Under the pieces are notes generated by a model. It searched no databases. It was not told where the DNA came from and saw nothing but the letters and a program-made list of their open reading frames with translations. Shown in pieces: positions 14,855 through 17,419 of a stretch of DNA of 64,000 nt; positions within the stretch are counted from its first letter, which is position 1; each line of letters opens with the position of its first letter. Made by a program: the position numbers and the translations under genes. This stretch comes from Thermoleophilia bacterium SCSIO 60948. Lineage in GTDB: Bacteria; Actinomycetota; Thermoleophilia; Solirubrobacterales; 70-9. The stretch spans positions 310,001 to 374,000 of the forward strand of contig CP053031.1 of assembly GCA_021496505.1 (NCBI GenBank), written 5' to 3'.

Positions 14855-15679
14855 GTGAGTAGGGAGCCGAAGGCTGAGTCGATGACGATCGACGAACTCG
14901 CGCGCCGGACCGGAATGACGGTCCGAAACATCCGCGCCCACCAGTCCCGCGGACTGTTGCCGCCGCCCGAGGTCAAGGGGCGGACCGGCTACTACGGAGA
15001 GGACCACGCGGCGCGGATCGAGCTGATCCAGGAGCTCCAGGGCGACGGGTTCAACCTCGAGTCGATCCGCCGGATCCTCGAGGGCGCGCACCCCGGGACT
15101 GAGCTGCTCGACTTCACGCGGGCGATCCGGGCGCCGTTCGAGGAGGACGAGGAGCCGGAGATCATGCCGCTCGCCGAGCTGATCGAGCGCTGGGAGCTCA
15201 AGCCGGACCCGAAGCTGATCACGGCGGCCGAGGACGTCGGCCTGCTGCGGATCCTCGACGCTGAGCGGACCGAGGTCCTGAGCCCGCGGCTGTTCCGGGC
15301 CGCCGACGAGCTGGCGCGGCTGGGTGTGCCACCGACGGTCGCCATCGCGCTCGCGAAGGACACGCAGAAGCATTCGCGCGCGGTCGCCCGCAGCTTCACC
15401 AGGTTGTTCCTCGAGCACGTCTGGGAGCCGTTCGACGAAGCGGGCCGGCCGGAGGAGCGCTGGGCGGAGATCCGCGAGTCGATCGATCGCCTGCGCCCGA
15501 TCGCCTCCGAGGCGCTGCTCGCGATCTTCCAGCCGGCGATGACCGAGACGGTCGAGGAGGCCTTCGGACGCGAGTTCGGGGCCAGGGGACGCTCACGGGA
15601 TGGCTCTTCGGGCGACTACGGAACCTCGCACTCCTCGAAGTCACGCAAGTCCTCGAAGCGCTCGAGCCGCAAGCGCTGA
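14855..15679 (+). CDS. MerR-family transcriptional regulator
   Basis: 274 residues from the GTG at 14855, chosen for GAGGAAGG ten bases before; ATG starts at 14819 and 14882 are alternatives. The MerR helix-turn-helix and wing are clear: M-T-I-D-E-L-A-R-R-T-G-M-T-V-R-N-I-R, then S-R-G-L-L-P-P-P and G-Y-Y-G. The conserved E-L-I-Q-E-L-Q-x-D-G-F-x-L-x-x-I follows. The C-terminal part is a long helical domain with no metal-binding cysteines, ending in a Ser/Lys/Arg tail. It probably regulates itself and the divergent membrane protein. Confidence 0.85.
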   Translation: MSREPKAESMTIDELARRTGMTVRNIRAHQSRGLLPPPEVKGRTGYYGEDHAARIELIQELQGDGFNLESIRRILEGAHPGTELLDFTRAIRAPFEEDEEPEIMPLAELIERWELKPDPKLITAAEDVGLLRILDAERTEVLSPRLFRAADELARLGVPPTVAIALAKDTQKHSRAVARSFTRLFLEHVWEPFDEAGRPEERWAEIRESIDRLRPIASEALLAIFQPAMTETVEEAFGREFGARGRSRDGSSGDYGTSHSSKSRKSSKRSSRKR

Positions 15680-15734
15680 GCGGCGCCGCGGCGCCGATTC
15701 GGCCGGGCTCGCGCGGTCGCGCCGGGGGGCCGGC

Positions 15735-16073
15735 TCAGTCGCCTCGGACGTAGGGGTTGTAATCCGGGTCCGTGCCGGCGCGCTGGTCGGGCTCGTAGGG
15801 GGAAGCTGCACGATCATCGGCATCGATCGGCTCGGTCCACGGCGCCGCGGCGCCGCCGGCCTCGTCGACGGCGCCATCGGACCCCCGCTCGACGGTCCCA
15901 CCGAGCCTGCCGGTCATGAACATCGCCCCGAAGATGATGTCGCAGCCTCCGACCGCGATCAGCGACGCCCAGATCGGATCGACCGCGGTCCCCAGCGCGA
16001 GCCCGGCGATCAGGAAAGCCGCGCCGGCGGCGATCAGGACGGCTCCAACGAGTCGCTGGGAGGAGGTGGGCAT
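15735..16073 (-). CDS. Small two-helix membrane protein (hypothetical)
   Basis: 112 residues. Two adjacent hydrophobic helices (about 8-28 and 33-55) are followed by an acidic, Pro/Ala-rich cytosolic or exported tail ending in D-P-D-Y-N-P-Y-V-R. It has G/C-ending codons and does not overlap the neighbours, which supports a real gene. It is convergent with the MerR gene; a perfect GGCGCC-GC-GGCGCC palindrome at 15682-15695 between them may terminate transcription. I do not recognise a family. Confidence 0.6.
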   Translation of the reverse strand: MPTSSQRLVGAVLIAAGAAFLIAGLALGTAVDPIWASLIAVGGCDIIFGAMFMTGRLGGTVERGSDGAVDEAGGAAAPWTEPIDADDRAASPYEPDQRAGTDPDYNPYVRGD

Positions 16074-16082
16074 GGCGGCAGG

Positions 16083-16277
16083 CTAGGTGTCGGGCTCCGC
16101 GACGTCCAGTTGGCGCTGGGAAGGCGAGCGGTCGCTTGTCGCCGCGCCGAGGCTCTCGGCGCGAGTCACCCGTAGCACCCCGTCGTCGGTCGCCTCGTAG
16201 AGCAAGCGATCACCGACGTTCAGTCCCGCGGCGTCGAAGGCGTTGCGGGGGATCGTCGTGAATCGTCTCCGAGACAC
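16083..16277 (-). CDS. AbrB/SpoVT-like DNA-binding domain
   Basis: 64 residues if a GTG at 16277 is used; the same frame is open upstream through tRNA-Tyr into the nuclease frame. The domain pattern is T-V-S-R-R-R-F-T-T-I-P-R-N, D-A-A-G-L-N-V-G-D-R-L-L-Y and D-G-V-L-R-V-T-R. Such swapped-hairpin domains bind DNA as dimers and often act as transition-state regulators or antitoxins. There is no clear ribosome site at the GTG. A short Ala/Ser/Gln-rich tail follows. No toxin gene is visible nearby apart from the nuclease frame. Confidence 0.6.
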   Translation of the reverse strand: MSRRRFTTIPRNAFDAAGLNVGDRLLYEATDDGVLRVTRAESLGAATSDRSPSQRQLDVAEPDT

Positions 16278-16865
16278 GGTCGTGGTGCCACGAGCTATGA
16301 CCGGCCGATCCCCGCGATCACGGTACGGGGAGTCTGAGAGTGGGGGAGGTGGGATTCGAACCCACTCAGGCTGAGCCACTGGCTTTACAGGCCAGCTCAC
16401 CTCTCCAGCTGTGACGCTCCCCCGAGCGAGCGGCGATTCTAGGCATCGGGATCGCGGCTTCAGCGGCGAGCCCGACTCGACCTCGAAAGACGAGTATTTC
16501 CTGCCGCCGAGAGTCAGGCAGGAAGTCGCCTCGACTTCATGGGTCGGAATGGCCCACCTGCGTCCGTCGCCGACATGCACGAACAAGACGTCACAGCGTC
16601 CAGGGTCGAAGTACTTGACGCGCCCGTTCCAGCTCTGGTTGCCGCCGAGGGTCGCGATCTGAACCTGCCACCGACCGCCGGGCTGCTTGTAGGTGCCGGT
16701 CTTGACCTCGACCCGGAGCGTCCGGGTGTCGATCGTCGCGATGAAATCGACGTCCGGGCTGTGGCCGAGCGGGGTGTAGACGTGCGCGCCCTGTTCGGCG
16801 AACCACTGCATCGCCGACAGTTCGCCTATGTCGCCCTGCTCGCGTGGTTTGAGGTGCTTGGCCAT
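16083..16865 (-). CDS. PD-(D/E)XK nuclease frame reading through tRNA-Tyr into AbrB-like domain
   Basis: From the ATG at 16865 (GAGG just upstream) the first about 140 residues look like a PD-(D/E)XK endonuclease of the group-I-intron-associated type: G-D-I-G-E-L-S-A with E15, P-D-V-D-F with D40, and V-E53-V-K55 as the catalytic E-x-K, then W-x-V-Q-I and Y-F-D-P-G-R-C-D-V-L-F-V. The frame has no stop before tRNA-Tyr, which would encode about residues 148-175, and continues into the AbrB-like domain to 16083. A 260-residue fusion is possible on paper, but tRNA processing should cut the message, so two products or a nuclease without a normal stop is likelier. Confidence 0.65.
   Translation of the reverse strand: MAKHLKPREQGDIGELSAMQWFAEQGAHVYTPLGHSPDVDFIATIDTRTLRVEVKTGTYKQPGGRWQVQIATLGGNQSWNGRVKYFDPGRCDVLFVHVGDGRRWAIPTHEVEATSCLTLGGRKYSSFEVESGSPLKPRSRCLESPLARGSVTAGEVSWPVKPVAQPEWVRIPPPPLSDSPYRDRGDRPVIARGTTTVSRRRFTTIPRNAFDAAGLNVGDRLLYEATDDGVLRVTRAESLGAATSDRSPSQRQLDVAEPDT
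16341..16423 (-). tRNA. tRNA-Tyr (GTA)
   Basis: Minus-strand cloverleaf with acceptor GGGGGAG/CTCCCCC, anticodon stem CTGGC/GCCAG around loop CTGTAAA (anticodon GTA), a long class II variable arm (GTGGCTCAGCCTGAG) as expected for bacterial tRNA-Tyr, T arm GGGTTCGAATCCC and discriminator A. CCA is not encoded. It lies inside an uninterrupted protein frame on the same strand. Confidence 0.95.
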
Positions 16866-16972
16866 GACCTCGAAGCTAGGCCGCGGGCCGGCGTCAAACC
16901 GCTCGAATAAGCCAAAAACAGGCCGAAGGCACAGAATCGGCATGCATCCGTTTCGCAGCCGGCACGCGCGCG

Positions 16973-17419
16973 TCACGAATCGCTGACTCGCGCGCTCGCC
17001 ACGAGGTGGCTCATGACGATCTGCGAGCGCGTGCGCTCGACGCGACCGTCGCGCTGGAGGTCGATGATCAGCCGCTCGAGGTCGGCGTTGTCCGCGGTCC
17101 GCACCCTGGCGATCGCGTCGGCCTCGCCGGTCACCGACCACGCCTCCGCCACCTCGGGGTGCTCGCGAAGCGCCTCGGCGACCTCGCCGAGCGTCGTGCC
17201 GGCGCGGAAGAAGAGCTCGACGAGCGCCTCGGTCGAGGCACCCATCGCAGCGTGGTCGACGACGGCCGTGAAGCCCTCGAGCGCGCCCGTCGCCCGCAGC
17301 CGGTCGACCCGTCGCTTGACCGCGGGGGCACTCAGCCCGACCCGCTCGCCGACGTCACCGAACGTCCGCCGCCCGTCCTCGACCAACAGCGCAAGTATTC
17401 GACGGTCCACGGCATCCAC
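16973..17419 (-). CDS. Lrp/AsnC-family transcriptional regulator
   Basis: 148 residues. The N-terminal helix-turn-helix begins M-D-A-V-D-R-R-I-L-A-L-L-V-E-D-G-R and continues V-G-L-S-A-P-A-V-K-R-R-V-D-R-L; the C-terminal alpha-beta ligand-binding (RAM) domain includes V-A-E-A-W-S-V-T-G-E-A-D-A-I-A-R-V. Members sense amino acids and act locally or globally. It is divergent from the DUF6421-like gene, with 72 bp between that hold a near-palindromic TTATTGCGCAGAA (17428-17440), so local control of that gene is likely. Confidence 0.9.
   Translation of the reverse strand: MDAVDRRILALLVEDGRRTFGDVGERVGLSAPAVKRRVDRLRATGALEGFTAVVDHAAMGASTEALVELFFRAGTTLGEVAEALREHPEVAEAWSVTGEADAIARVRTADNADLERLIIDLQRDGRVERTRSQIVMSHLVASARVSDS

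Follow-up and report, generated by a model that had tools for sequence, protein, structure and literature searches.

A homing-type nuclease gene of a Thermoleophilia bacterium with a reading frame that runs through tRNA-Tyr

The stretch of 64,000 nucleotides (nt) analysed here, called the window, comes from Thermoleophilia bacterium SCSIO 60948 (genome G000, a single contig of 3.42 Mb with 97.65% completeness; G000:C1:310001-374000) and carries on its minus strand one open reading frame (ORF) that encodes a nuclease, passes through the complete gene for tRNA-Tyr and ends in a small DNA-binding domain. We consider it probable that this ORF is a selfish element, a free-standing homing endonuclease with the I-Ssp6803I fold, that is split around the tRNA-Tyr it resides at and brings along a resistant tRNA copy of its own. 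Judged by sequence comparison, the linkage to tRNA-Tyr is constant, a single frame leads through the tRNA, the two halves occur together, the tRNA allele is replaced, and the distribution is patchy with many decayed copies. Adjacency, replaced alleles, empty syntenic sites and decay fit homing into tRNA-Tyr. Below, G-numbers denote genomes and L-numbers loci, f1 is the family of the window, f3 another family of the order, and g9 a genus. The features in question are, in window coordinates:

16083..16865, minus strand: ORF of 260 codons, composed of nuclease, tRNA-encoded linker and AbrB/MazE-type domain; ATG at 16865, stop TAG at 16085-16083
16452..16865, minus strand: PD-(D/E)XK nuclease domain (PDDEXK_5, PF11645), residues 1-138, with predicted catalytic residues D40, E53 and K55
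16340..16423, minus strand: tRNA-Tyr(GTA), read in the same sense as the ORF and taking up codons 148-175 or thereabouts; its mature part of 83 nt spans 16341-16423; found by ARAGORN and Rfam
16152..16298, minus strand: AbrB/MazE-type domain, residues 190-238
16436..16441, minus strand: TAGAAT, -10-like box of the tRNA within the C-terminal codons of the nuclease (in frame CTA GAA T), at a position conserved in relatives
16873..16878, minus strand: TAGCTT, -10-like box 7 nt ahead of the ATG, presumably giving a leaderless mRNA
15580..17000, minus strand: stretch of the syntenic locus over which the window and its congener G024 diverge

Translation of 16865..16083 (minus strand) yields 260 residues followed by a stop and has D40 and E53-x-K55 in place; translation, ARAGORN and Rfam agree with a preliminary description of this DNA, which had reported a single minus-strand frame of 260 codons holding these residues and the tRNA-Tyr at codons about 148-175. 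The frame is also open upstream of ATG 16865, as far as a GTG at 17141, and ATG 16865 was taken as the start because the relatives agree on it and a TANNNT box lies 7 nt ahead. The tRNA-Tyr of the window is the only pattern match for this tRNA in the genome.

The assignment of the nuclease to the I-Ssp6803I type, likewise proposed in the preliminary description, held up in family and structure searches. Residues 7-112 match PF11645 (PDDEXK_5) with 33.2-35.1 bits against a Pfam cut-off of 26.1, the top match of a PDB profile search is I-Ssp6803I (2OST, E 4e-5), and the four top matches of Foldseek are chains of 2OST (best E 5e-7), obtained with a predicted model whose nuclease part lies mostly above 90 in predicted local distance difference test (pLDDT); a model built from six sequences had a mean pLDDT of 48 and was not used. 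Across 23 sequences D40 and K55 are conserved in at least 90%, and the position of E53 is occupied by E or Q. In the nuclease, the proportion of nonsynonymous differences (pN) is below that of synonymous differences (pS) in all pairs, with pS near saturation. Fold and family, as far as profile and model comparisons go, point to a homing endonuclease. Rfam yields only three tRNAs and no group I intron in the window, and the nuclease gene is free-standing; an intron-encoded nuclease, as in I-Ssp6803I itself, was ruled out by the same result, intron encoding being a trait of that enzyme and not of all PF11645 members.

Searched with a profile of the nuclease, 232 genomes of the order gave a high-scoring clade that stands apart from paralogues with lower scores. 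From this clade 34 loci were examined, two of which end at a contig edge, and in all 32 testable loci tRNA-Tyr(GTA) adjoins the nuclease, confirming a constant position at this tRNA as opposed to random ones. The tRNA lies on the same strand and 3' of the nuclease in 29 of the 32, usually 35-78 nt past the end of the profile match, and frameshifted or truncated copies (G026, G030, G021, G040, G057, G125 and others) are still found at the tRNA. The spread is patchy, with the nuclease present in 12 of the 50 genomes of the family, several decayed copies and empty syntenic loci. In seven of the eight loci measured in f3, the nuclease ends at a stop of its own 14-38 nt ahead of the tRNA; in this family it is not followed by an AbrB domain and sits at about -37 to -19 relative to the empty tRNA-Tyr locus. 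The preliminary idea of a frame free of stops in relatives was borne out by all intact f1 copies and failed in f3. No relatives of the tRNA-Tyr clade were found in viral contigs, and no relatives on plasmids.

Since 10% of random positions and frames of the window (68% GC) stay open for 260 codons, an open frame by itself is weak evidence; for the linkers alone, the probability of an open frame is about 0.55-1.0. The arrangement was therefore tested by comparison, using 42 further tRNA-Tyr loci of f1 plus the window. An AbrB domain lies 3' of the tRNA in ten of these (G000, G021, G024, G026, G027, G028, G030, G041, G043 and G049, the last with weak remnants of both halves), all ten have a same-strand nuclease or nuclease remnant, and none of the remaining 33 f1 loci has an AbrB domain. 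Where the 3' half is intact, phase is kept in eight of eight loci, in that the distances from nuclease motif to tRNA end and from tRNA to AbrB core are both multiples of three, with 5' spacers of 74-92 nt, a tRNA of 82 or 83 nt and eight distinct 3' spacers of 39-96 nt; the rule is broken by the decayed G030. With free phase, the 3' spacer alone would be in register in all eight loci with a probability of about 1.5e-4 by our own arithmetic, a figure whose effective number of loci is lowered by relatedness. The AbrB-like domain is reached without a stop, as had been described for the window. The core of this domain has pS > pN in 28 of 28 pairs, reversed in both other frames, with pS near saturation. 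The commonest tRNA-Tyr of f1 contains a TAA (D-loop GGTTAAAGG) in the frame used by the 82-nt cassettes, whereas the tRNAs of the cassettes have GGTCAA- or GGAGAG-type loops that leave the frame open; the GGTCAAA loop type is also normal in f3.

The arrangement is real and not due to chance, because adjacency is constant, phase is kept despite insertions and deletions, both halves co-occur and the design recurs at tRNA-Ala. A chance open frame was ruled out by phase conservation together with the co-occurrence of the halves. It is very improbable that a nuclease gene beside a tRNA merely runs, in GC-rich DNA with frequently open frames, into an unrelated AbrB-like frame: the background rates given above would allow it, but it leaves unexplained that AbrB never occurs without nuclease or remnant, and that constraint on its core is confined to one frame.

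A reading with two products was also weighed, according to which the nuclease ends at the tRNA on a processed message without a stop and the AbrB domain is a product of its own that might, for instance, regulate the nuclease or act as its antitoxin. Processing would be expected to sever the tRNA from the message on either side, the promoter-like box of the tRNA could feed the 3' part, and AbrB/MazE and Phd/YefM are known as DNA-binding parts of type II antitoxins. However, several loci offer no start in frame beyond the tRNA (G021, G024 and G043 lack any ATG, GTG or TTG between tRNA and AbrB), and separate genes need not keep the frame of the nuclease, which is nevertheless kept in 8/8 loci here and in 16/17 at tRNA-Ala(GGC); we judge this reading unlikely. 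The pairing of AbrB domains with toxins, brought up in the preliminary description, does not seem to apply to this locus: instead of the separate antitoxin and toxin ORFs of a type II system, the AbrB domain is in frame with the nuclease, and no toxin families occur among the scanned neighbour proteins. The domain hardly resembles an antitoxin for an adjacent toxin; it is the other half of the nuclease ORF. That the nuclease had lost its own stop, as the same description suggested, is a fair account of the likely history; the ORF is not a decay product, because the extension ends in a second conserved in-frame domain and the design recurs at tRNA-Ala with a Phd/YefM-type domain.

Comparison of occupied and empty loci indicates that the tRNA gene was replaced along with the cassette, because tRNA alleles diverge while the flanks stay collinear and similar. 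Relative to the empty locus of G022, G024 has about 600 extra nt 5' and about 276 extra nt 3' of the tRNA between collinear flanks. The congeners G027 and G028 are 86% identical in their downstream flanks and 68% in their tRNA-Tyr genes; G000 and G043, which belong to different genera, share 87% identity in the tRNA-Tyr gene. Between the window and G024, identity is 81% and 75% in the flanks outside 15580..17000 and 69% in the cassette core. Stems of the diverged tRNAs are intact, with 99.6% of cells paired and both partners changed in 11 of the 23 pairs, and the tRNA copy of the cassette is probably resistant to its own nuclease. Free-standing homing endonucleases are characterised by patchy occurrence at one site, where relatives have empty or decayed alleles, and by co-conversion of target-gene sequence; both features are found here. 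A small ORF directly after the cassette (window 15735-16073, minus strand) lies within the stretch that does not align to G024 and matches no family above cut-off.

The strong divergence of a structurally sound tRNA would also suit a toxin or defence nuclease directed against the RNA of tRNA-Tyr, made safe by a recoded immune tRNA-Tyr and restrained by its C-terminal domain, for which the attached antitoxin-type domains could be cited as well. We give this reading little credence: its nearest relative of solved structure acts on DNA as a homing endonuclease, and patchy, decaying copies at one locus resemble homing. PADLOC returned no match for the window protein, and its identity as a defence system was set aside on this result.

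The paralogues with lower scores had been intended as a negative control but proved to be tRNA-linked themselves. They comprise 59 loci, and in all 58 that could be tested a tRNA lies within about 510 nt, which is tRNA-Ala in 54. At tRNA-Ala(GGC), the frame of the nuclease runs through the tRNA in 33 loci, and in 17 loci a Phd/YefM-type domain (PF02604) follows the tRNA, in frame in 16 (L121, L125, L131, L157, L159, L161, L165, L171-L174, L183, L184, L186, L189 and L195). In the cassettes with a Phd-like domain, the intervening sequence has no stops and hardly any start codons; the sole out-of-frame case, L176 of G019, may reflect decay or an assembly error, which the data do not distinguish. 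Among the 30 tRNA-Ala(GGC) loci of f1, seven have the Phd-like domain and the nuclease, one the Phd-like domain alone and 22 neither. The genome of the window itself has a second nuclease at tRNA-Ala(GGC) with a partial nuclease match and a Phd-like domain (G000:C1:2011013-2011255; L195, L246), and a third that is convergent to tRNA-Ala(TGC) (G000:C1:72107-72502; L122, L233). On the comparison of these loci, the design recurs independently at tRNA-Ala(GGC) with a Phd/YefM-type domain. Whether, as a general design, nuclease genes are split around the targeted tRNA such that a working protein is obtained only if the tRNA is translated as a linker, with at least two origins (tRNA-Tyr with an AbrB-type and tRNA-Ala(GGC) with a Phd/YefM-type domain), is in our estimation evenly balanced.

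Beyond the order, 15 PF11645 loci of other actinobacterial groups (L226-L244) were examined in a phylum-wide sample, all at most 421 nt from a tRNA (Arg, Ala, Thr, Tyr or Pro) and none of the 15 with a frame through it. Phage relatives (L250, L251, L252) lie directly ahead of tRNA-Cys, tRNA-Tyr and tRNA-Pro, and in Escherichia phage UPEC06 the nuclease coding sequence ends directly ahead of tRNA-Tyr. In both annotated phage records the nuclease gene is labelled only as hypothetical.

The homing reading would work as follows. The nuclease domain at the 5' end, about 28 linker residues read from tRNA-Tyr and the small AbrB/MazE-type domain at the 3' end would be translated as one protein, from a promoter distinct from that of the tRNA. 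The nuclease would cut cassette-free tRNA-Tyr alleles, repair of the break would copy the whole cassette in, and the essential tRNA gene would be exchanged for the resistant copy of the element. The C-terminal domain may serve target binding, autorepression or both, as does the tethered DNA-binding domain of I-TevI. With its halves flanking the tRNA, a working nuclease could not be inherited without the matching tRNA copy, and its output would be kept low by RNase P/Z processing; trimming of the nuclease message by tRNA processing, an option named in the preliminary description, is plausible, the same having been proposed for selB/selC (PMC8124441).

In most relatives a -10-like box lies a few nt ahead of the start codon and is overlapped by CGAACGTATGTTCG or a close variant, which implies a leaderless message. 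A box of the SOS type, CGAAC-N4-GTTCG or a close variant, is located at the presumed promoter of L005, L008, L011, L024-L030, L033-L037, L040 and L107, and SOS control of most relatives is likely, because boxes of the same form precede LexA-like and DinB-like genes in G000, as assigned by reading their sequences.

Several observations weigh against homing by a translated two-domain enzyme. Translation and cleavage are inferred, as the case is built on comparison of sequences and structure models, and efficient translation through the tRNA is disfavoured by the strong structure and the processing to be expected of it. The PF04014 (MazE_antitoxin) match at residues 195-234 is weak and below the Pfam cut-off. 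Three nucleases of g9 (L009, L010, L013) are convergent with tRNA-Tyr and located downstream of it; they lack AbrB and stand beside an ordinary tRNA allele. In the sister group at tRNA-Ala, many frames cross the tRNA only to stop within a few codons, with no domain behind it; a frame that enters a tRNA is therefore not always a fusion. The nuclease tree is weakly resolved and neither supports nor excludes a single origin of the fused form. Finally, the promoter of the window copy, TAGCTT, has no SOS-type box, by which SOS control was ruled out for this copy.

If translation proceeds as we infer, one run of bases would double as an essential tRNA and as the linker between the two domains of an enzyme, and a homing element would be bound to an essential gene in such a way that neither could be lost or parted from the other, since no recombinant could keep the nuclease and lose the resistant tRNA. 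The comparison suggests a selfish gene family that spreads by replacing an essential tRNA with its own copy, and this would account for the group of nucleases beside tRNA genes throughout the phylum. The locus would also offer a system for directly measuring the competition of tRNA processing and translation on the same transcript.

Among known systems, I-Ssp6803I (PDB 2OST) is a PD-(D/E)XK homing endonuclease whose group I intron interrupts the tRNA-fMet gene of a cyanobacterium (references cited in PMC3984707). The window gene shares its fold, its Pfam-type nuclease and a tRNA gene as genomic home; it differs in being free-standing without a group I intron, in crossing the tRNA and in having a second domain. 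The SegB-type endonucleases of T-even phages are free-standing and tRNA-linked, cut within tRNA genes and drive the inheritance of the tRNA region (PMC13096335, PMC2988022), but they have a GIY-YIG fold, reside in phage tRNA arrays and do not contain a tRNA in their ORF. PDDEXK_5 genes of Jug phages have been counted as stand-alone homing endonucleases (PMC12363816). I-TevI consists of a catalytic domain, a long linker and a DNA-binding domain that both targets and autorepresses (PMC2988022); the resemblance is limited to this layout, as the folds differ, there is no homology and the linker is not tRNA-encoded. A nested putative tRNA-Pro-like sequence was described for octocoral mitochondrial mutS (PMC11353228), a mitochondrial and different gene that is not a mobile nuclease of the present kind. 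A tRNA as internal linker of a mobile nuclease was not reported in the literature searched, which mostly excluded preprints and subscription papers. The closest precedent for the nesting is selC (tRNA-Sec) within the selB ORF of Alphaproteobacteria, the first report of a tRNA in a bacterial ORF, for which tRNA processing and translation were proposed as alternatives (Mukai 2021, PMC8124441). As there, a complete sense tRNA lies inside one conserved bacterial reading frame. In selB/selC the tRNA forms a C-terminal extension of a host elongation factor, whereas in the cassettes described here a conserved domain follows the tRNA, which would be an internal linker of a mobile nuclease and is tRNA-Tyr or tRNA-Ala. 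While nesting itself has this precedent, the use of a tRNA as a linker between two domains appears to be new.
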